30,945 bases of DNA, from positions 1 through 30,945 of the IMG/VR virus record IMGVR_UViG_3300030380_004180. One strand, written 5' to 3'. Positions 1 to 30,945 of the stretch are shown here, in pieces. This stretch comes from a virus. A program made the translations under genes and the position numbers. The notes below the pieces were generated by a model that did no database searches, was not told where the DNA came from, and was given only the letters and a program-made list of their open reading frames with translations. Numbering within the stretch: the stretch's first letter is position 1; each line of letters begins with the position of its first letter.

Positions 1-40
1 CTTCTTCTCCTTCAATAAATAGTTGAATGTTTAAACTCAT
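1..40 (-). CDS. Large tail protein, 5' fragment (duplicate of right-end gene)
   Basis: The first 13 codons of the tail protein gene fully present at 28687-30879 are repeated here because of the terminal redundancy. The start codon (38-40) overlaps the stop of the upstream tail gene (37-39) as ATGA, which shows that the two genes are adjacent on the circle. This copy encodes Glu at residue 12 where the full copy encodes Lys. It is partial only because of where the circle was opened. Confidence 0.85.
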   Translation of the reverse strand, partial: MSLNIQLFIEGEE

Positions 41-106
41 CGCACATCATTTATTTTGTTAAATGCAAATTCAAATCTAACAGTATAATTAGCAAGTTTG
101 TCATTC
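1..106. repeat. Terminal redundancy, left copy (circular genome join)
   Basis: Positions 1-106 match 30840-30945 at 104 of 106 bases; the only differences are two adjacent bases at 7-8. Reading frames continue correctly across the join, so this is best read as assembly overlap of a circular or circularly permuted genome rather than a functional repeat. The unit length is about 30,839 bp. True short direct terminal repeats are possible, but the repeat lies inside two coding regions and ends arbitrarily within one. Confidence 0.9.
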
Positions 107-1023
107 AAACTCGTTTTTAATTGTAACTGTTTATCAATTGCATTCACAGGCAATGTCTGATTGTTGAACCTTATCCAAACATTTTCAGACAAAAATAATT
201 CTTCAATTGTTGAATTCATATCCTCCAGAACAAAACCTGTATTCAGTTCAATCTTTGTTTTTGCTTTTATGTTATATCTCCCCTCTTGTCTTTCATAAAA
301 ATTGTAAGTCAAGGCATCTGTGTCTATTATGTTTCTTTTGAATTTCTCATCATTAAGATCAAAAGATTCTTTTGTTGTTTTGAAAAAATAAAGGTCTTGG
401 TAAGCACCATATTTGTTTACAAATGTAACCTTGTATGGAGTATGTTTCGGCTCACATATGTGTTCCACTTTGACTGTTCTCAATACAGTTGTATCATCAG
501 TATCATAAACCTGAATTGTTGATGCTGTGGTTGGAATTGTTATGTATTGAATTTTTTGGTTAGTGTTTCCATCATCTGTGATCTGTGTATCTGAAGAATC
601 GATTGCTACTTTTCCGACCCCTTGTGCAAAAATAGGCAACTTGCCAGTTTCTCCTTCATTCAAATAAATGTTATTCGATGTCATCAAAAGGTTGTCAGAT
701 AATTGTGGGTTAATTCCATCCTCGAAATATCCGTACCCATCTTTTGAAATATAAGTATTCACCACAGGCGATCCACTTGCAAATTCTGTTCCGCTTGAAT
801 CATACAACCTTGCTTCTGTTCTTACCCATACCGTATCACTTGGATAATTGTTATTGAAGTTGTGAGTGATATAATCTTTTACAAGGTTTGCAATTTCAAA
901 CGTTACATTTGTTTGTGAAGATATTCTTGTTTTCTGGAGTTGATATTTTAGATTTCCAGAATGTGCAGATGACAATCCTGTGTAAATGTAAACATCAAGT
1001 TCAACTGAATTAAGTACAGGCAT
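37..1023 (-). CDS. Putative minor tail / distal tail structural protein (328 aa)
   Basis: A 328-residue protein rich in beta-prone, polar sequence (many Asn, Thr, Asp), with no signal peptide and no membrane segment. I do not recognise a catalytic motif. Its start shares one base with the stop of the GT29-like gene upstream (TAATG), and its stop overlaps the start of the 730-residue tail protein (ATGA), so the three are translationally coupled. The position, two genes before the tape measure and after tail completion genes, indicates a tail or baseplate component. This type of protein is common in Bacteroidota siphoviruses and prophages as an unnamed structural protein. A receptor-binding role is possible but not shown. 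Confidence 0.65.
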   Translation of the reverse strand: MPVLNSVELDVYIYTGLSSAHSGNLKYQLQKTRISSQTNVTFEIANLVKDYITHNFNNNYPSDTVWVRTEARLYDSSGTEFASGSPVVNTYISKDGYGYFEDGINPQLSDNLLMTSNNIYLNEGETGKLPIFAQGVGKVAIDSSDTQITDDGNTNQKIQYITIPTTASTIQVYDTDDTTVLRTVKVEHICEPKHTPYKVTFVNKYGAYQDLYFFKTTKESFDLNDEKFKRNIIDTDALTYNFYERQEGRYNIKAKTKIELNTGFVLEDMNSTIEELFLSENVWIRFNNQTLPVNAIDKQLQLKTSLNDKLANYTVRFEFAFNKINDVR

Positions 1024-1526
1024 TATAAAAATTTTATTTGGTTCCCTAAACTGTTTATTTTTTGCAATTCTAAAATTGGCTTGTGCAATGTTCCTCTTGG
1101 TTCATCATCTCCATAATGATGCTTTTTTCTATTCCACCAATCAAAACCTGTTATTGTTATCTCTGGAAAAGATTTTAGAAAATGAAAAATAGCAATTAAT
1201 CCTGTGCTTGGGTGATTGATTCCGATTTCTTGAATTTGTTCCATTTTTATTTTTTTTATATCCCTATATCTTTTTAAATCTGCATACATTTTGCAATTTT
1301 CTAATCTTGCCCAACTATGAAAAATCACCTCATCGAATTCATTTATTTCATTTTTATGGCATCCATTTACTGTAAACCAGATATCTGTTTTTGTTCCTGC
1401 ATATTCCTCAAACCCTTGAATCTTGAAGCTGTTAAATCTTACAACCTTATCAAACTTGTCAATCTCATTTCCCATCTTCCTGTCAAGTAAACTGCTTCCG
1501 TTTCCAATTAATATAATGCTTTGCAT
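1023..1526 (-). CDS. GT29 (sialyltransferase-like) glycosyltransferase
   Basis: A 167-residue protein with the layout of family GT29 sialyltransferases. An N-terminal L-sialylmotif-like stretch (residues about 7-50) contains GNGSSLLDRK, a VVRFNSF segment and TKTDIWF. An S-motif-like PSTGL follows at 106-110, then ITGFDWW at 125-131, and HHYG and HKPILE (His148, Glu153) fit the small C-terminal His/Glu motifs. It has no signal peptide or membrane anchor, so it would act in the host cytoplasm. It overlaps the upstream glycosyltransferase by 19 nt and shares its stop with the start of the tail gene. It is short for the family and looks like a minimal catalytic domain. The fold family is fairly convincing; whether the donor is CMP-sialic acid, CMP-Kdo or another sugar nucleotide is unknown. 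Confidence 0.75.
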   Translation of the reverse strand: MQSIILIGNGSSLLDRKMGNEIDKFDKVVRFNSFKIQGFEEYAGTKTDIWFTVNGCHKNEINEFDEVIFHSWARLENCKMYADLKRYRDIKKIKMEQIQEIGINHPSTGLIAIFHFLKSFPEITITGFDWWNRKKHHYGDDEPRGTLHKPILELQKINSLGNQIKFL

Positions 1527-2407
1527 AACAGTTCATAATATTTGCTCGATGCTCTTTTTTTATCAATCTTCAAATCATTTGGAGGTAATTCCTTTTGATG
1601 AATCGCTTTGTAAAACATTCCGCTTTCTGTATCTGTTACTCCTGCATTGTGATATATCGCATTTTTTTCCCAATCATCAACCTTATTTGTTGCCCAAGTA
1701 AAATTCATTTCTTCAATGATCTCTGTTTCTTTTCCCTGCTTCCAAAGATTCCAGAGAACTGCCCACATATCAGCACACCATATTTGCAATTCGTGGTAAT
1801 TTGGATCATTTTCTTTTTTCTTCAAATTAAGACCTGTAACCGATTCAAATAGTTTTTCTGAATCATTATATACGTTTAGCCAAAAGGATCGATCTATGCC
1901 CTTTAAAACATATTGTGCGCCTCCGCTCTGATCTTGTTTCTCTTTTAAAATTCTTTTATCAATATCAGCAACTTTGCTCATCAAATCCAAAACATCATCT
2001 CCTTTGCCTTTTATGTATTCATATCCGATGTAACTTTTTGTGTCACTCAAATAACAAACATCATCTTCAGGAAGATTTAATTTTCTTGTCAAAACAATAT
2101 CACAATCGTGGTAAAAAATTGTTTCTTCTTTCAACTCTGGATTTGCAACCCAATGCTTATACATCAAATGAGGTCTAATCGAACTCACATATTTTGAATT
2201 GTATCTTGTATCTGGATAATAAAAAAACTCAACCTGTGGGTATTTCTTTTCAAGTTTCTTGAAATTTTTATGTGGTTTTGTTTTATACCCCAAAACAATC
2301 TGTATCGTATTCTTTTTGAACAATCCTAATTCTTTGAATGAATATAGCATTATGTCAATCTGCCAAGAATAATAAAACCAAGATGGTTGTGCGCAAATAT
2401 AAATCAT
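1508..2407 (-). CDS. GT-A type glycosyltransferase, tail-operon (299 aa)
   Basis: A 299-residue cytosolic protein. The N-terminus resembles a nucleotide-sugar-binding beta strand region, followed by a metal-binding DxD in YHDCDIVL (Asp101-Cys-Asp103). Downstream, SGGAQYVL (161-168) and IYHNAG (251-256) are typical acceptor-site elements of GT-A enzymes. The pattern recalls peptidyl-Ser/Hyp O-galactosyltransferase-like families, but I can assign only the GT-A class with confidence. Its start codon overlaps the stop of a 15-codon ORF (TGATG), and its 3' end overlaps the GT29-like gene by 19 nt. It follows a Thr-rich virion protein gene. I infer a role in modifying a virion protein or a host or phage surface glycan. 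Confidence 0.7.
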   Translation of the reverse strand: MIYICAQPSWFYYSWQIDIMLYSFKELGLFKKNTIQIVLGYKTKPHKNFKKLEKKYPQVEFFYYPDTRYNSKYVSSIRPHLMYKHWVANPELKEETIFYHDCDIVLTRKLNLPEDDVCYLSDTKSYIGYEYIKGKGDDVLDLMSKVADIDKRILKEKQDQSGGAQYVLKGIDRSFWLNVYNDSEKLFESVTGLNLKKKENDPNYHELQIWCADMWAVLWNLWKQGKETEIIEEMNFTWATNKVDDWEKNAIYHNAGVTDTESGMFYKAIHQKELPPNDLKIDKKRASSKYYELLCKALY

Positions 2408-2454
2408 CAGCTTCCTGTGTAAGTTATAAAAAATGGACTTCTCGTGTTTATCAT
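2407..2454 (-). CDS. 15-codon ORF repeating the MINTRSP start of the upstream gene
   Basis: A 15-codon ORF begins MINTRSPFF and ends with a TGA that overlaps the ATG of the glycosyltransferase (TGATG). The neighbouring 117-residue protein begins MINTRSPYH, and the first 20 bases of the two ORFs agree at 18 positions. It may be the remnant of a second fibre-like gene cut off when the glycosyltransferases were inserted, or a leader peptide that couples translation of the glycosyltransferase. It is too short to name a function. Confidence 0.4.
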   Translation of the reverse strand: MINTRSPFFITYTGS

Positions 2455-2463
2455 AATTTGAAT

Positions 2464-2817
2464 TTAAGGTGTAAATGTTCCGTGTGCCTCTGTTCCATCA
2501 CAAGCAATGTCAGTTTCTACTGAAACATATTCTGTTGTTCCTGATGTTCTTTCATAAAAATACTGTGGTGCATAAATGCAGATATTCTGTTGTGTGTTTG
2601 CAGGAACTTCTGCACTTGTGATCTCGCCCGGTCCTGATCGAAAATTAAAAAAAACGCTTTGACTTGTGCTGAAATTATTTACAAAATATCTCACATACAA
2701 AGCACTTGTTGTGGTTGTGGTTGCAATTGGTGCAGCAGTCGTTGTCGTTACAGCAACAGTTGTCGTTGTTACTGCATTCTCATATTCAAGATGGTAAGGA
2801 CTTCTGGTGTTGATCAT
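2464..2817 (-). CDS. Thr-rich (mucin-like) virion protein, 117 aa
   Basis: A 117-residue protein in three parts: a short N-terminal tag (MINTRSPYHLEYEN), a Thr/Ala/Pro tract at residues 17-37 with three runs of four or five Thr, and a C-terminal beta-rich domain with two Cys (about residues 78 and 104). The gene starts inside the upstream stop codon (ATGA). The layout suggests a fibre or decoration protein whose flexible linker joins an anchor to a surface domain. The Thr tract resembles O-glycosylated mucin linkers, and two glycosyltransferase genes follow directly. No signal peptide is seen. Its role as a virion protein is inferred from position in the tail operon. Confidence 0.6.
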   Translation of the reverse strand: MINTRSPYHLEYENAVTTTTVAVTTTTAAPIATTTTTSALYVRYFVNNFSTSQSVFFNFRSGPGEITSAEVPANTQQNICIYAPQYFYERTSGTTEYVSVETDIACDGTEAHGTFTP

Positions 2818-5895: not shown

Positions 5896-7065
5896 TCATC
5901 TGATTGCATACTTACCAAAATTAGGTCTGCTTAACAATGAGTATGTCGAATATCGAAGAGCATCAGTAGTGTGATTTGCGTGATCCTCTGGAATGTTTAA
6001 GATTCTTCCGTTTCGATCTTCTCTCCATTTATAGTTTCTAAATTCAGAAATTAAGTTTTCACTTCCACTTATCAGGTGTATCTTGTATCTCTTCAATAGA
6101 TCAATCCCTGCATTAACAGAATCTCTGCCCTTGATGCTTGGTCTTACATTCCAACCCATTCTTCGCAATTCATCATTTAAGCGAGCCTCTGCCGAATCAG
6201 CAAAAATCACCTCTCTGTCAATTTGCAATTTCTGAAAGAACTTATGTATGTCAATTGTTGTCATCATTCTTTGGTAAAGAAATTCTTTTACGTAAAGATT
6301 ATACCCATCAATCCAAACCCCGACCAGAGTTGTAGGATCATTCGTGTATCCATAGTCCATCCCATACGACAAAAAGGAGGCATTCTCAGGTACTTTGTTC
6401 ACTTCAATGTATCTAAAGATTGTTGATCTTGAAACTCCCCTTTGCCCTAATCCATAAATTTGCCAATACTGTTCATCTGTTTCTCTTAATCTTTCAATCT
6501 CTCCAATGATTGTATCAGAAAGAAATGGGTTATCTAAATAAGTTGTTTGAAAAAAATCAGCATCCTCTCTTGGTATCACTTTGTCGTAAATCCAATGAAA
6601 TTCATCCGATGGATTAAAATCAAGAACAATCTTGCCCTCTGTCCTGAAGATCAATTGTTGCCAATCTTCCCAACTTAATTCATTCGCCTCATTGATGAAA
6701 AGCAAATCTCTCTTTCTCCCTCTCACTTTTTGAGGCTGATCCAAAGAAATGAATTCAACTAAATTGTTGTAGAGTATGTATTCTGAAGATGATTTGTTAT
6801 GAAACTCCTCCTTGTACATTTGATGAGTTTTCAATATCTCCAGAAAATCTCGCAGAACTGATGCCCTCAATGCAGGAAAAGTTTTTCTACATATCGTTAT
6901 TGTTTTACCTCTGTGTTGGGGTGCATAATGAAAGATGAGCCAAACAAGGATGTTGTATGTTTTCCCTGATCTTGTTCCACCCTGTTCAACAATTATCTTT
7001 TTTTCACTCTGGAGAAGATGATTGCAAACTTCATTAGTTTGAACTTTTGCTTTTGACAATCTCAA
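5896..7065 (-). CDS. terL: Terminase large subunit
   Basis: The 389-residue DNA-packaging motor. The ATPase has Walker A GGTRSGKT at residues 29-36 and Walker B LLFINEAN at 121-128. The RNase H-like nuclease has its acidic residues in GMDYG (Asp237), IFADSAE (Asp290) and HTTDALRY (Asp368). It belongs to the Terminase_3/6, PBSX-like group, and the length is normal for compact terminases. The frame has no ATG before the Walker A motif; the likely start is TTG at 7065 (or TTG at 7059), overlapping the small subunit gene by 32 nt. With the small subunit it would bind DNA and translocate it through the portal. Confidence 0.95.
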   Translation of the reverse strand: MRLSKAKVQTNEVCNHLLQSEKKIIVEQGGTRSGKTYNILVWLIFHYAPQHRGKTITICRKTFPALRASVLRDFLEILKTHQMYKEEFHNKSSSEYILYNNLVEFISLDQPQKVRGRKRDLLFINEANELSWEDWQQLIFRTEGKIVLDFNPSDEFHWIYDKVIPREDADFFQTTYLDNPFLSDTIIGEIERLRETDEQYWQIYGLGQRGVSRSTIFRYIEVNKVPENASFLSYGMDYGYTNDPTTLVGVWIDGYNLYVKEFLYQRMMTTIDIHKFFQKLQIDREVIFADSAEARLNDELRRMGWNVRPSIKGRDSVNAGIDLLKRYKIHLISGSENLISEFRNYKWREDRNGRILNIPEDHANHTTDALRYSTYSLLSRPNFGKYAIR

Positions 7066-7384
7066 TTGTTATATCGTTTGGTAAGCCATCGCCTCCTGTT
7101 ATCTCCTGTCTTTCAACATAGCCTCTTTTCTTGCCTTTTGTTTTTAAGTAGAATATTGTAGCAGATGTATTCCCTTCCTGAATTTGTTTGTGCAATTGTG
7201 ATTCTGCAAAATCCAGAGCAATGTTTTGTATATCCTCTACTTGTGTTCTGAAGCTTTCATCTTTCATCCATTCATAAAAAGTACTCCTTGCAATTCCTAC
7301 CTGCTTGACTGCAGTTGTAACGACCCCAAGCGATTTCTCCAGAGATTCAATAACTGCTTTTTTTAGTGTGTCCGTTTTGTCCAT
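7034..7384 (-). CDS. terS: Terminase small subunit
   Basis: A 116-residue protein with an N-terminal helix-turn-helix (about residues 20-45: TTAVKQVGIARSTFYEWMKD), as in small terminases that recognise the packaging site, then a helical oligomerisation region (DFAESQLHKQIQEG) and ATIFYLKTKGKKRGY, a pattern common in phage TerS proteins. The C-terminal tail overlaps the large subunit gene by 32 nt. It follows the glycosyltransferase pair, with a 38-codon ORF between. Confidence 0.85.
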   Translation of the reverse strand: MDKTDTLKKAVIESLEKSLGVVTTAVKQVGIARSTFYEWMKDESFRTQVEDIQNIALDFAESQLHKQIQEGNTSATIFYLKTKGKKRGYVERQEITGGDGLPNDITIEIVKSKSSN

Positions 7385-7479
7385 TTTATTTGTTCTAAAT
7401 ATTCAACGATCTGTATGTAAACCTTTGGGAAATCTCTGTATAAAACTTGTACAATTTCTGAATCCTTTAGGTCATCCAT
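7363..7479 (-). CDS. Small ORF between glycosyltransferase and terS (38 aa)
   Basis: A 38-codon ORF beginning MDDLKDSEIV. It starts two bases after the stop of the glycosyltransferase gene and overlaps the start of terS by 22 nt in another frame. It fills what would otherwise be a gap of nearly 100 bases in a genome that is almost fully coding. A predicted helix with hydrophobic spacing (IVQVLYRDFPKVYIQIVEYL) supports a real small protein. The function is unknown. Confidence 0.45.
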   Translation of the reverse strand: MDDLKDSEIVQVLYRDFPKVYIQIVEYLEQIKWTKRTH

Positions 7480-7480
7480 T

Positions 7481-8224
7481 TCAAACTCCTTTTATTGGCA
7501 CTTTAATTATTGGGTTGATATCAAAAGTTTTCTTCTTTTTTCCTTTTTGTGTTGTATCAGATTTTACAATGTCTGTTCCCCATTTACGTTGGAAGATTTC
7601 AAATTGTTCTTTCTCTTTTGCAATTGTTCTATAATCAGCACAACCTCCAATGTTTCCGTGATCCTTTTTGACCAGATGCACAAAATTGAATCTAATCAGC
7701 TTTCTGTACTTATGTAACGTTTGTAAAGAGAAATCTAAATCTTCTTTCAAAGGTATTCTTTCATCAAAGGCACATTCGTTATTTATGAATCCCATTAAAC
7801 TGCCAGAAATCCAATTTGTAAAACTGATTGGTGTATACTCCCTGTACGATCCTTTGTCTCCAACAATGTTTACCCCCCAGAGTTTGCAATTTGCTTCTTC
7901 ACAAAAATTAAAAGCCATTTCAAAGAACTCGATAATGTCATCGATCTTTTTTGGATAAGGTAGATCATCTTTTTTTGTCCATATTTTTATTGCTTCAATG
8001 TCATCATCAATGATCAATCCTTTGTCTTTTATAAGTTCATCTTTTATGTAATTTCTTACCCTTGAAATGTTGCCTTGAATTCCATCTGGTAAGATGTGCA
8101 AATTCACATTATTTTTTTTGTAATCTTTTTGATCTTTTTTATCAATACAATAAATTACTTCAGGAATTAATTTGTGAGTTTTTAATCCATTAGGTCTTTT
8201 ATAAGATGGACTGTAAATCTTCAT
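7481..8224 (-). CDS. TAGT-like GT-A glycosyltransferase, copy 2 (247 aa)
   Basis: A 247-residue protein with the features of TET-associated glycosyltransferases. An N-terminal strand is followed by SYKRP (residues 7-11), an RVRN basic segment, a metal-binding IDDD at 72-75, and a catalytic acidic KEDLDF at 160-165; a C-terminal KDHGNIGG could close the active site. It overlaps its paralogue by 4 nt (ATGA). In other phages such enzymes are predicted to attach sugars to oxidised or hydroxymethylated pyrimidines in DNA. No TET/JBP oxygenase, DNA methylase or pyrimidine hydroxymethylase is visible here, so the acceptor may instead be a host-made base or a protein. GT-A class is likely; the substrate is unknown. 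Confidence 0.7.
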   Translation of the reverse strand: MKIYSPSYKRPNGLKTHKLIPEVIYCIDKKDQKDYKKNNVNLHILPDGIQGNISRVRNYIKDELIKDKGLIIDDDIEAIKIWTKKDDLPYPKKIDDIIEFFEMAFNFCEEANCKLWGVNIVGDKGSYREYTPISFTNWISGSLMGFINNECAFDERIPLKEDLDFSLQTLHKYRKLIRFNFVHLVKKDHGNIGGCADYRTIAKEKEQFEIFQRKWGTDIVKSDTTQKGKKKKTFDINPIIKVPIKGV

Positions 8225-24058: not shown

Positions 24059-25120
24059 TTAAACAATATTTTTTACTTCTGTAATGAGTCCACTTTGAAC
24101 TCTAAATTGAGAATTTAAATTGAAATTTGTGTAGTAACCATCCACATATGCTGCATTCAAACTTCCTTGCGATGATAATGGTGCAGAAGTATCAGTTTGA
24201 TTTGCGGGTATAACAACTCGAATGCCAATTGAATTAACAGAATCAAAAAGACCGAAATCTGTTGGACTACTTGTGTTTCCATTATTATTTGTGAAAGATG
24301 CAGTTGTGCCATTTGGATTGTTTGCTGTTCCGGTTTGTAATGATGAAAATTCAGTTGCAGAAAAATAACTTACACCTGTTGTTATATGATGCCCAATTCC
24401 TACTGTTGTTCCTCCGACATTTGTTGAAGAAAAACTTAATCCAGAAGAACTGCCACTAACAACCTCTGGCTCACTATATCCCAAAAATGAAACCAAAGTT
24501 ACAACTGATCCCCTGATTCCTGTAAAATCTGCAAAAGTGCCATCAGGATTTATTGCCATTCGATATGTGACAATTCCAGAAGGTACACCAGTATGTGTAT
24601 ATTTGTGTATTGAACTTTCAATTGTATTTGTAACCCCTGAAACTGTTGTTGTTGGAGAAGCTGTTGTGGTTGGTGCAACTGTTGTTGTGGGTGCAGCTGT
24701 AGTTGTTGGTGCAATCGTGGTTGTTGTTAATGCAGGTTGACTCACCACTTCAGATTTGTTAACTTTTGATCCTGCGTTTGCAAACCTTACTTGTTCCCCT
24801 GAAACCTGCACACTATCAGGAACAGTAACAGTTGATTCAACAGTTCTATTTGTTGGAGTTCCGACAGTACTGAAAGAAGATGGACTGACTGTAACAGTTC
24901 CAATATCAGTTCCTTCGTAAGTTGCTGAAGGTGGTGTTATCACTCCTTGATCTGAAACCGATAATCCTGTAAATGCAACATTTTCATTTGTCAATACCAA
25001 TCCTGTTACGCTACCAACCCCTTGATTAAAATAATCTTCACCACAGCACTCGACAGAATATGTATGCCCATCTCTACAAAGGCAACCTCTTTTTTTATTT
25101 TGAGGAATTGGATATCTCAT
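24059..25120 (-). CDS. Thr-rich virion protein with Cys-rich N-terminus (353 aa)
   Basis: A 353-residue protein. The N-terminus has a Cys-rich segment with GCLC and ECC (residues 11-26, four Cys), then a beta-rich domain, a Thr/Pro/Ala repeat at residues 132-160 with a unit of six residues (APTTTA, APTTTV), and a C-terminal Ser/Thr/Asn-rich beta domain. The Cys-rich start and Thr linker recall virion proteins of uncultured marine and Bacteroidota phages. It lies between the protease and scaffold genes (ATGA with the former) and is probably a capsid decoration or fibre protein. The Thr repeat is a possible O-glycosylation site. Confidence 0.6.
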   Translation of the reverse strand: MRYPIPQNKKRGCLCRDGHTYSVECCGEDYFNQGVGSVTGLVLTNENVAFTGLSVSDQGVITPPSATYEGTDIGTVTVSPSSFSTVGTPTNRTVESTVTVPDSVQVSGEQVRFANAGSKVNKSEVVSQPALTTTTIAPTTTAAPTTTVAPTTTASPTTTVSGVTNTIESSIHKYTHTGVPSGIVTYRMAINPDGTFADFTGIRGSVVTLVSFLGYSEPEVVSGSSSGLSFSSTNVGGTTVGIGHHITTGVSYFSATEFSSLQTGTANNPNGTTASFTNNNGNTSSPTDFGLFDSVNSIGIRVVIPANQTDTSAPLSSQGSLNAAYVDGYYTNFNLNSQFRVQSGLITEVKNIV

Positions 25121-28553: not shown

Positions 28554-28687
28554 AATTCTCTCTCAAAGATTCTGTATGCTTCTGTTGGACTTTCTGGTAA
28601 TTTGTTTTTTCCTAATGCTATACCAATATAACGACCTGTTAACTTGAATTTTTTAGATAGCATCAAAAGATCAAAAATTTGTTCCAT
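28535..28687 (-). CDS. Small protein upstream of tape measure (50 aa)
   Basis: A 50-codon ORF beginning MEQIFDLLMLSKKFKLTGRY. Its start shares a base with the stop of the large tail protein (TAATG), and its 3' end overlaps the tape measure by 19 nt. Helical, with a basic centre. Small proteins before the tape measure often help tail assembly, but the frameshift chaperone is elsewhere in this genome. The function is unknown. Confidence 0.6.
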   Translation of the reverse strand: MEQIFDLLMLSKKFKLTGRYIGIALGKNKLPESPTEAYRIFERELWQSEL

Positions 28688-30879
28688 TATATCGGTACGG
28701 AATTATCGGCTTTCACTTTATTTGAGTCTGCTTTAATGAATGGTTTATCAACTGTATCAGCCAAAAGAGATTCATCTGTTGTCAAAGTAAATTCTGAAAC
28801 TTCATTTATCAATTCAATTTTTGATTTTAAAGTTTGAAAATTTGTTTGAATACTGTTAATCCTATAAAGGTCTGTTCCAATGATGAATTTATTGTTCATT
28901 TCAAGATTCAAAATTATTCTTAATGGCAGGAACGCTTCCAATTTTATCAGCCTTCTGTTTGATTTGAAAATGTCAGATATGTAATTTTTGTAGAAACTTT
29001 CAAATAATGATTTCCTGAATGGCACATTTGCGTACTCACTCATTTCAGCAGAAAAATTAATTGTTTGTGAATCTGTTACAAATCTGGAATTTGAAGGTAT
29101 GTAATAATTTGATATTGTTGAAAAAAGGTTTCCTGTTGTTCTTATTGCAATAGAAGTTCCTCCTGTGATTTTTATTGGATAAAACAATAATGGTTTCCCC
29201 TTGAAGGTACTGTCATTTTTGTCAACCGCAAATCCAACTTGCACATCTGTATTTTGTCCACTTACTCCGATGTTTTGTAATCTTGTGAATTTAAAATGTT
29301 CAAAAGGTACTTCAATCTTATAATCATCTCCCTCTGAAGCTTTTGTTCCTTCGTTATCTCCTTTGTATGTGATTGACCCCCACTCTTTGTTTGTTACCTG
29401 TTTATGATTCTCTGCAAGTTTCATTTCCAAACCTTGATATCGCATTATAATTGATTTATATTGCTGTAAAGGTTCTAATGATGCTTGTGAATTATCTACA
29501 AAATCAGAAATGTTCCAATTGTTTGTGTTGTCTGCATAAAATTGATCCAAAGTTTTTACAACAATTTCATCTTTGTTATTTACAAAAGCTGTTAAATTAA
29601 ATAGTTTAAATAATCCTGTTAAGAAATCAATAACTTTAATTTCTGGAAGTTCATTTTCAACTGTTAATTTTTCATTTGTTGTTTGTGCTGTTCTTCCATC
29701 AAAAGTTACTGTTCTTACTTGAGTACCGATCTGTGGGAATGTAGGTGGAAATCTTTTTTTGATTGTGATCACTACATTGATCCCTGTTGGGTTTTCAAAT
29801 TCTGCAAAAAATTCATAAACTCCTTGTGGTAATTTTGGAGATTCAAACATTGAAAGCACATCTTGATTCCCTGATGCAATATTGTCATATCTTTCAAACT
29901 CTTCTCCATTTCTTTTTACAACAATATTATAGCCACTTATTGAAGATGTGGATTTAATGTCAAGAAAAAACTCCCTTGTGTGATAATGTTCATTTAAGGT
30001 GAATGTTGTAGATGTTATCGTATTGCCTAAATCCTCATCGCCTGTATTTCCTCTTAAATTTGTTAATCTAATTGGAACAACTTGTTTGTCAAATCTTGCT
30101 CCTTCTTTTTTGTGCAGCCACATATAAAGGTCAAAAAAATCTCCATTTGAAGAATCAAAGAAACCACCACTTGCAAACTTTATATTTGCAGAAAATCCTT
30201 TTGCTGTTGTGTAATGTTTTTCAATCGCTTTGATTATAGCATAAACCCTTACAGCAGGTTTAAATTGTGTATAACTTGGTCCTTGTACATTACTTGAATC
30301 TGTGCTTGGGTACAGGTTCTTTGAATCTTGAACTTCAGATGTTGAGTTATAAAAAACTTGATCTGTGTGTGTAATCAATGGAAACAAAATACCATCATCA
30401 ACAAACTCGCCATCTACATATTTGTCAACCCCTGCCTGCATCATTGAAACAACACTTGCAGGAGTATAATCAACAATTATGTCCTTCAACCCATCAAGAG
30501 TATCAATTTTATCCTCTCCCAAAAAGTCCTTGAGGTTTACGATTGATCCATAAAAGGTCAAAGAATAAGAAAGCGGACTTCCTCCTTTTAGTTTTGATCC
30601 TTGCAAGGAAATTCTTCCTTTTTTAAAAAGTTGATGATTTAAATAAATCTCTGCACTTTTTTTGATTCTTGTATCATAACCGATCACAGCAAAATCGTAA
30701 AAGTGTTTGAAGATTTTATTGTTTGAATCTGAAGCAGGAACATCAAAGGTTTTTGAAAAATCAGTAAATATTTTTCCGATGTCTCTTATTTCCTGAATGC
30801 TTTGTTTTATGGTTATTGATTCATCAGCAAACAATTCAACTTCTTTCCCTTCAATAAATAGTTGAATGTTTAAACTCAT
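28687..30879 (-). CDS. Large tail / baseplate-hub protein (730 aa)
   Basis: A 730-residue protein beginning MSLNIQLFIEGKEVELFADE. The segment SIQEIRDIGKIFTDFSKTFD, then VPASDSNNKIFKHFYDF (to about residue 64), is a mark of a tail protein family of Bacteroidota phages and prophages. The remainder is beta-rich, with IKVIDFLTGLFKLFNL near residue 420 and no recognised catalytic motif. The gene lies between the 328-residue tail gene and the tape measure, overlapping the former on the circle by ATGA. It is likely a distal tail or hub component. One codon differs between the two ends of the window. Confidence 0.7.
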   Translation of the reverse strand: MSLNIQLFIEGKEVELFADESITIKQSIQEIRDIGKIFTDFSKTFDVPASDSNNKIFKHFYDFAVIGYDTRIKKSAEIYLNHQLFKKGRISLQGSKLKGGSPLSYSLTFYGSIVNLKDFLGEDKIDTLDGLKDIIVDYTPASVVSMMQAGVDKYVDGEFVDDGILFPLITHTDQVFYNSTSEVQDSKNLYPSTDSSNVQGPSYTQFKPAVRVYAIIKAIEKHYTTAKGFSANIKFASGGFFDSSNGDFFDLYMWLHKKEGARFDKQVVPIRLTNLRGNTGDEDLGNTITSTTFTLNEHYHTREFFLDIKSTSSISGYNIVVKRNGEEFERYDNIASGNQDVLSMFESPKLPQGVYEFFAEFENPTGINVVITIKKRFPPTFPQIGTQVRTVTFDGRTAQTTNEKLTVENELPEIKVIDFLTGLFKLFNLTAFVNNKDEIVVKTLDQFYADNTNNWNISDFVDNSQASLEPLQQYKSIIMRYQGLEMKLAENHKQVTNKEWGSITYKGDNEGTKASEGDDYKIEVPFEHFKFTRLQNIGVSGQNTDVQVGFAVDKNDSTFKGKPLLFYPIKITGGTSIAIRTTGNLFSTISNYYIPSNSRFVTDSQTINFSAEMSEYANVPFRKSLFESFYKNYISDIFKSNRRLIKLEAFLPLRIILNLEMNNKFIIGTDLYRINSIQTNFQTLKSKIELINEVSEFTLTTDESLLADTVDKPFIKADSNKVKADNSVPI

Positions 30880-30945
30880 CGCACATCATTTATTTTGTTA
30901 AATGCAAATTCAAATCTAACAGTATAATTAGCAAGTTTGTCATTC
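30840..30945. repeat. Terminal redundancy, right copy
   Basis: This is the second copy of the 1-106 sequence. It carries the first codons of the large tail protein gene and the last codons of the 328-residue tail gene, exactly as at the left end. The two mismatches give a synonymous Gly codon change and a Lys here in place of the Glu encoded at the left end, at codons 11-12 of the tail protein. Confidence 0.9.
30876..30945 (-). CDS. 328-residue tail gene, 3' fragment (duplicate of left-end gene)
   Basis: The last 22 or so codons of the tail gene at 37-1023 are repeated here by terminal redundancy. The stop at 30876-30878 overlaps the ATG of the large tail protein (30877-30879) as ATGA, confirming the neighbour relation on the circle. 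Confidence 0.85.
   Translation of the reverse strand, partial: NDKLANYTVRFEFAFNKINDVR

Follow-up and report, generated by a model that had tools for sequence, protein, structure and literature searches.

Known systems and the locus

Virion glycosylation in mycobacteriophages is reportedly the subject of work by Freeman et al. in 2023 (Cell Host Microbe 31:1216). Two further accounts place glycans on the C-termini of capsid and tail-tube subunits (PMC12619734) and describe phage-encoded glycosyltransferases, for which virion shielding is proposed (PMC12619734, PMC11256854). This is the closest described system to the one considered here, a cassette of three genes in the tail operon of a virus (IMG/VR record IMGVR_UViG_3300030380_004180; the whole stretch of 30,945 nucleotides is referred to as the window), which encodes a threonine (Thr)-rich protein, a glycosyltransferase of predicted GT-A fold and a glycosyltransferase of family GT29. 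On the strength of sequence comparison and structure models, it is probable that the cassette serves to O-glycosylate a virion protein, the GT-A enzyme anchoring the first sugar on the Thr tract and the GT29 enzyme capping it with a host ulosonic acid activated by cytidine monophosphate (CMP).

As in phage virion glycosylation systems generally, a glycosyltransferase gene is linked to virion genes here, and the likeness to the mycobacteriophage system lies in phage-encoded glycosyltransferases and virion proteins (compared by description; the GT-A enzyme here belongs to family phrog_4417). What differs from mycobacteriophages is the predicted acceptor, a Thr tract encoded by an adjacent gene, together with a first enzyme whose predicted fold is GT8-like and the presence of a GT29 enzyme. 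Mucin-type O-glycosylation offers a further parallel, with a Thr/Pro/Ala tract as the predicted acceptor of an initiating enzyme and a GT29 cap; with no GT27 match and no secretory pathway, however, the two are analogous and not homologous. As regards a GT27 initiating enzyme, the GT-A enzyme has no Pfam glycosyltransferase match and no PF00535-type enzyme is found in the genome. The literature on poly-Thr phage proteins, phage GT29 enzymes and phage sialyltransferases yielded no description of this system, a weak absence given that subscription papers lay mostly outside the search.

Within the tail operon, the cassette runs on the minus strand from the Thr-rich protein through the GT-A and GT29 enzymes to a tail gene start at 1023:

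2464 to 2817, minus strand: Thr-rich protein of 117 residues, predicted acceptor, with an RSPYH segment from residue 5, a Thr/Ala/Pro tract at residues 17-37 and a C-terminal Cys-containing domain
1508 to 2407, minus strand: GT-A (GT8-like fold) glycosyltransferase of the phrog_4417 family, predicted from family match, conservation and model to be a protein O-glycosyltransferase starting the glycan on Thr
1023 to 1526, minus strand: compact GT29 (sialyltransferase-family) enzyme, predicted from PF00777, sialylmotifs and fold to add a cap from a CMP-activated ulosonic acid

An earlier reading of the DNA, made from the sequence only, had placed all three open reading frames (ORFs) at these coordinates, and they were recovered there on the minus strand. 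It had also described the genes as all coupled by overlaps, which holds for the two enzyme genes (19 nucleotides) and for the GT29 gene and the tail gene start (1 nucleotide, TAATG). The Thr-rich protein overlaps its preceding gene by 4 nucleotides but lies 56 nucleotides from the GT-A gene, and there the description fails.

The two glycosyltransferases

The GT-A enzyme matches the phrog_4417 profile over its full length (E=1.7e-60, residues 1-295 on 1-289 of 293), a family annotated as of 'unknown function'. Its DxD motif is DCD at residues 101-103, and D101, D103 and H253 are invariant among 34 aligned phage sequences from marine-type relatives, in which the motifs QIWCADMW and HNAG are also conserved; both Asp residues of the DxD and the conserved His are present in homologues from Bacillota phages as well. 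The AlphaFold model (predicted local distance difference test, pLDDT, 95.9) matches solved structures at Z 13-15, including glycogenin (Z 14.7), LgtC (Z 14.0), the Skp1 galactosyltransferase and UDP-glucose:glycoprotein glucosyltransferase (UGGT), and the fold is predicted to be of the GT8/GT24 type, GT8-like. The family match, the invariant Asp pair and the modelled fold together bear out the sequence-only description of a GT-A enzyme with a DxD.

In common with GT8/GT24 enzymes (glycogenin, LgtC, the UGGT catalytic domain and the Skp1 galactosyltransferase), the protein has a GT-A fold, a DxD and a late conserved His, although the likeness of the HNAG His to the metal-binding His of GT8 is one of motif order and not of residue-by-residue superposition. 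Unlike them, it has no Pfam or PDB sequence match and stands in a family of its own: neither GT8 nor any other glycosyltransferase is among its Pfam matches, there is no NCBIfam family, and its family profile matches no PDB sequence up to E=1. An identity as GT27, GT2 or a Ser/Hyp O-galactosyltransferase has no support from Pfam, NCBIfam or PDB sequences, and none of these is among the structural matches listed, an absence that does not exclude them. The likeness to Ser/Hyp O-galactosyltransferases that had been suggested was thus not borne out; the nearest solved folds among the matches listed are of the GT8/GT24 type (glycogenin, LgtC, UGGT).

Family GT29 of CAZy comprises sialyltransferases, and its plant members are thought to transfer sugars like 3-deoxy-D-manno-octulosonic acid (Kdo). 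The protein at 1023-1526, earlier called GT29-like, is a true member of this family, for which a CMP-ulosonic acid donor is predicted. It matches Pfam PF00777 (E=1.1e-15; score 58.2 bits, cut-off 23) and carries landmarks of the sialylmotifs L, S, III and VS (GNG..VRFN, PSTGL..GFDW, HHY and LHKPILE). G8-N9-G10, R30-F31-N32, G109, H148 and E153 are invariant in alignments of 6 and then 24 phage sequences, while P150, S107-T108 and H136-H137-Y138 are near-invariant in the 24; the profile alignment places H148 and E153 on VHDGDFE of ST3Gal-I. Its AlphaFold model (pLDDT 92.8) superposes on ST3Gal-I (2wnf) with Z 15.6 and a root-mean-square deviation of 2.5 over 160 of 167 residues, the GT42 enzymes CstI and CstII scoring lower, at about 12. 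The PF00777 match, the sialylmotifs and the ST3Gal-I fold are therefore shared with CAZy GT29 enzymes; its differences are its size (167 residues against about 270-300), its viral origin and its partnership with a predicted protein glycosyltransferase.

The catalytic residues, whose loss among homologues would have spoken against a working cassette, are kept in both enzymes (D101/D103 in 34 and H148/E153 in 24 sequences). Moreover, compared with record L002 (related records bear L numbers), both genes are under purifying selection, with dN/dS about 0.1 for the GT-A and about 0.2 for the GT29 enzyme.

Threonine tracts beside the GT-A gene

The tract at residues 17-37 of the 117-residue protein, TTTTVAVTTTTAAPIATTTTT, lies exactly where the sequence-only reading had put it and holds 13 Thr in 21 residues. 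This is far beyond chance (P=1.3e-11 for one 21-residue window and about 1e-7 across the proteome, with a Thr background of 5.9% in the other proteins of the genome).

Across 80 viral relatives of the GT-A enzyme, the protein encoded directly upstream is usually of structural type and bears a Thr tract. When 180 loci were reduced to 40 clusters at 70% identity, 24 of the 40 had a tract of at least 10 Thr in 20 residues (T10) in the gene directly upstream, a frequency to be set against 20 among the 354 remaining gene positions of these loci (p=3e-16); with clustering at 90% the count was 37 of 62. All 19 cultured phages inspected, which come from Bacillota, Actinomycetota (Arcanobacterium) and Bacteroidota, have poly-Thr at the end of the gene that precedes the GT-A gene or directly behind it, and this preceding gene is mostly that of the major capsid protein (MCP) or the major tail protein (MTP). 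Examples are 1706, phiFL1A, CHPC836, 4995_1, R3.3, PMBT8, iLp84 and MA9V-3. Thus orf13 of Lactococcus phage 1706 ends in ...GVTTTTTTTTTTHHD (tail TTTTTTTTTT) with the GT-A gene as orf14, the CHPC836 capsid protein ends in ...APTTTTTTQATTTTTSHA, and the phiFL1A tail protein in ...TTTTTSTTTTTTSSTTTTTTTQASSK.

The association also holds in the reverse direction. Among 80 viral loci (786 genes) chosen by the DNA pattern (ACN)11, with the enzyme ignored, eight GT-A genes were present and all eight were the next gene after a T10 gene, a place offered by 49 slots (chance about 2e-10). Since only 8 of the 49 T10 genes have a GT-A gene next, Thr tracts also occur without this enzyme; the gene after the T10 gene resembles another type of glycosyltransferase in L283 and L290. 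The co-occurrence that the sequence-only reading had proposed to look for among relatives is thus found in most GT-A clusters, in every cultured phage inspected and for all eight GT-A genes of the reverse sample.

Some apparent exceptions to this rule (L036, L047, L073, phi9183, PT1-4 and bIL285) were set aside as artefacts of gene calling, which vanish once spurious or inserted ORFs or alternative frames are read; in PT1-4, for instance, an ORF is inserted between the tail gene and the GT-A gene. Poly-Thr tails encoded in a different frame are found where the capsid gene (9183, Planchet, nattely, VFW) or the tail gene (RQ1, PT1-4, TPWB06) stops, and in bIL285 the tail follows directly behind the stop codon in frame. 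Such out-of-frame or post-stop poly-Thr at the ends of MCP and MTP genes before the GT-A gene (L142, L362, L356, L360, L138, L361, L358, L355) points to recoding, and suggests that frameshifting or readthrough may equip some of the subunits with a tail open to glycosylation.

A probable split of a tail gene

The first 98 bases from position 9 recur at the end of the window (9-106 = 30848-30945), and the genome of about 30.84 kb is therefore probably complete and circularly mapped, so that the tail operon at 37-1023 continues across the junction into 30879-28687. Two tail genes follow the cassette:

37 to 1023, minus strand: tail protein of 328 residues (phrog_35281, E=1.7e-17), without the N-terminal RSPYY segment of intact homologues and apparently the remainder of a split tail gene
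28687 to 30879, minus strand: tail protein of 730 residues, encoded immediately behind 37-1023 on the far side of the circular junction

In L034, L060, L109 and L114, an RSPYY segment opens the tail protein. In the window, L002 and L005, a segment of this type sits on the Thr-rich protein, a homologue of 187 residues in L002, and the tail protein behind the enzyme genes begins without it. The simplest reading of these sequences is that the cassette would have split an ancestral tail gene, with the Thr-rich protein retaining its N-terminal segment, which argues that the Thr-rich protein is itself a tail protein. In L034, L060, L109, L110 and L114, the gene in the place of the 730-residue tail gene bears a Thr tract itself, with the GT-A gene directly behind it. 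Neither a GT-A match nor a Thr tract was found in the cultured relative P12024L, which shares this tail gene cluster.

Linkage of the GT29 enzyme

Searching for related loci with the single GT29 sequence found none, and with a GT29 alignment as the query it found 43. A GT-A gene is linked in 18 of 44 GT29 records: in 11 the GT29 gene stands directly after the GT-A gene, mostly with overlapping ends; in L071 the two are fused in one ORF of 495 residues (6001-7488); and in six (L060, L109, L110, L112, L114, L115) the two are about 7 kb apart, with the GT29 gene upstream of the tail cluster (behind the terminase gene in L060) and the GT-A gene itself behind a Thr-tract tail protein. The linked GT29 enzymes span at least three lineages of the GT29 tree.

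It is conceivable that only the GT-A enzyme acts on the Thr-rich protein, the GT29 enzyme having another acceptor (a host glycan or another virion protein) and being merely swept into the operon. Most GT-A loci indeed have no GT29 gene (it is present in 6 of 80 records), the downstream partners of the GT-A gene are very variable, and the fused pair of L071 has no adjacent Thr tract. However, the directly coupled records, the fusion, the co-occurrence in trans and the involvement of several GT29 lineages all speak for a shared function, and we regard a separate role for the GT29 enzyme as unlikely.

The other genes found behind the GT-A gene encode GT2, GT6, DXD-sugar, radical S-adenosylmethionine (SAM)/SPASM, 2-oxoglutarate (2OG) oxygenase and methyltransferase proteins, a variety that would fit a single anchoring enzyme with diverse tailoring steps. 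A radical SAM/SPASM-type gene directly follows the GT-A gene in L003, L018, L038 and L039 (the Pfam match is established for L003), where further modification of peptide or sugar is possible. L117 (4504-8567) encodes a protein of 867 residues that includes 30 consecutive Thr, and behind it a GT2 enzyme and a GT29, apparently the same kind of cassette with another initiating enzyme; a GT2 enzyme precedes GT29 in L106 too.

The sugar donor

A CMP-sugar synthetase (PF02348) is encoded in 11 of 44 GT29 records but in none of the 50 GT-A records that lack GT29 (p=1e-4). A KdsB-like gene directly precedes GT29 in L093, whose GT29 enzyme is 54% identical to that of the window, and in L125, while L127 has a PseF-like gene and KdsA behind GT29. 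In cellular relatives of the GT29 enzyme (L346-L351), a cytidylyltransferase gene is immediately next or one gene later, and NeuB, a haloacid dehalogenase (HAD) phosphatase and a Kdo transferase lie near GT29 in L349. These genomes belong to Neomarinimicrobiota, Cloacimonadota and TMED6, and the locus is a cellular one of sialic-acid-like or Kdo-like type. The hosts of the Nonlabens and Bacteroidota phages nearest to this one by tail gene and TerL, respectively, are expected to make CMP-Kdo for lipopolysaccharide (LPS). From these gene neighbourhoods, the nonulosonic-acid-type cap proposed by the sequence-only reading appears plausible, with CMP-Kdo at least as likely a donor as CMP-nonulosonate.

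GT29 and CMP-ulosonate enzymes are natural to the making of LPS and capsule, and certain viral GT29 loci form islands of sugar-pathway genes. The pair could accordingly glycosylate a surface glycan of the host (LPS, capsule or teichoic acid), as phage glycosyltransferases often do, and so block superinfection or change the serotype, the Thr-rich protein being a chance neighbour. Against this, the GT-A gene tracks the Thr tract in the late structural operon in phages of hosts as distant as Bacteroidota and Bacillota, which makes host-glycan modification an improbable role. Modification of phage DNA by the GT-A and GT29 enzymes, suggested by two TET-associated glycosyltransferase (TAGT) genes in the same genome (7481-8224 and 8221-8937), which point to DNA glycosylation, is most improbable, since the cassette lies in the tail operon 5 kb from that pair, Thr-tract proteins and sugar genes accompany it in relatives, and its predicted folds are of GT8-like and GT29 type; in this genome the enzymes of DNA type are the two TAGT proteins.

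A proposed route to virion O-glycosylation

The idea first put forward from the sequence, that the phage glycosylates its own Thr-rich virion protein with the two enzymes of a cassette, is supported by the adjacency of the Thr tract, the linkage and fusion of the GT-A and GT29 genes and the conserved catalytic landmarks. We infer from these that a glycan is made, and likewise its sugars, the acceptor residues, the location and the benefit. In the host cytoplasm, ahead of tail assembly or in the course of it, the GT8-fold enzyme of the phrog_4417 family would move a sugar from a host nucleotide-sugar to the tract threonines of the protein whose gene directly precedes its own. The GT29 enzyme would then cap that sugar with an ulosonic acid from the host CMP pool (CMP-Kdo of LPS-making Gram-negatives, or a CMP-nonulosonate). 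Bearing the N-terminal segment of the split tail protein, the Thr-rich protein would dock in the tail and display the acidic glycan. The likely benefit, altered adsorption or shielding of the tail, is the least supported step.

Several observations weigh against this route. The Thr tract of the window is shorter than that of most relatives (13 Thr, longest run 5), and long Thr tracts are absent from the vicinity of a minority of GT-A homologues. No run of seven Thr codons occurs in records L037/L041, the L043-L071 group (which includes the GT-A/GT29 fusion) or L065, by a strict criterion that the shorter Thr runs of the window itself would miss. The occurrence of the enzymes in relatives without a Thr-rich virion protein, which had been named as a ground for refutation, is thus confined to a minority of GT-A homologues (e.g. 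L037 and the L043-L071 group). Further, as the GT-A family has no sequence match to a characterised family, its sugar and acceptor are deduced from fold and context. Finally, no donor-synthesis gene is present in the window genome (PF02348 is absent) or in the other GT-A-linked phages, which would therefore draw on the CMP-sugar pool of the host.

A possible wider phage system

The related loci strongly suggest that the GT-A family acts on Thr tracts of the preceding virion protein and that the GT29 enzyme adds the cap, which would make this kind of sugar-coating of phage virions widespread; it is so far unnamed. A still broader proposal, to which we give even weight for and against, is a modular phage 'mucin' system in which, among phages with hosts in at least three bacterial phyla, phrog_4417 enzymes would O-glycosylate poly-Thr of virion proteins. 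The glycan would be diversified by second enzymes that vary (GT29, GT2, GT6, radical SAM, 2OG oxygenase, methyltransferase), and frameshifting or stop readthrough in several phages would give only some capsid or tail-tube subunits a poly-Thr tail, setting the glycan dose.

If true, a protein annotated as 'prophage pi2 protein 34' or 'hypothetical' in many cultured phages, among them Lactococcus phage 1706, Enterococcus phages phiFL1A and VPE25 and Staphylococcus phage PMBT8, would be a virion protein O-glycosyltransferase with a predictable acceptor. Virion glycosylation would reach well beyond mycobacteriophages, and a soluble enzyme family of the bacterial cytoplasm would act on poly-Thr. 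The capping of glycans by phages with acidic ulosonic sugars would also bear on adsorption and phage recognition.

The genome around the cassette

The phage that carries the cassette is small and marine-type; its tail gene is nearest to those of Nonlabens phages and its TerL to those of Bacteroidota phages. A second Thr/Ala/Pro tract is encoded elsewhere:

24059 to 25120, minus strand: protein of 353 residues near the capsid genes, with 16 Thr in 30 residues of the tract

This protein is a possible second acceptor, in trans. The two adjacent TAGT genes stand beside a ParB-like gene, and DNA base hypermodification is probable in this phage. In the cultured relative P12024L, a gene with a 2OGFeDO domain stands together with a similar small gene and one for a DNA methyltransferase.

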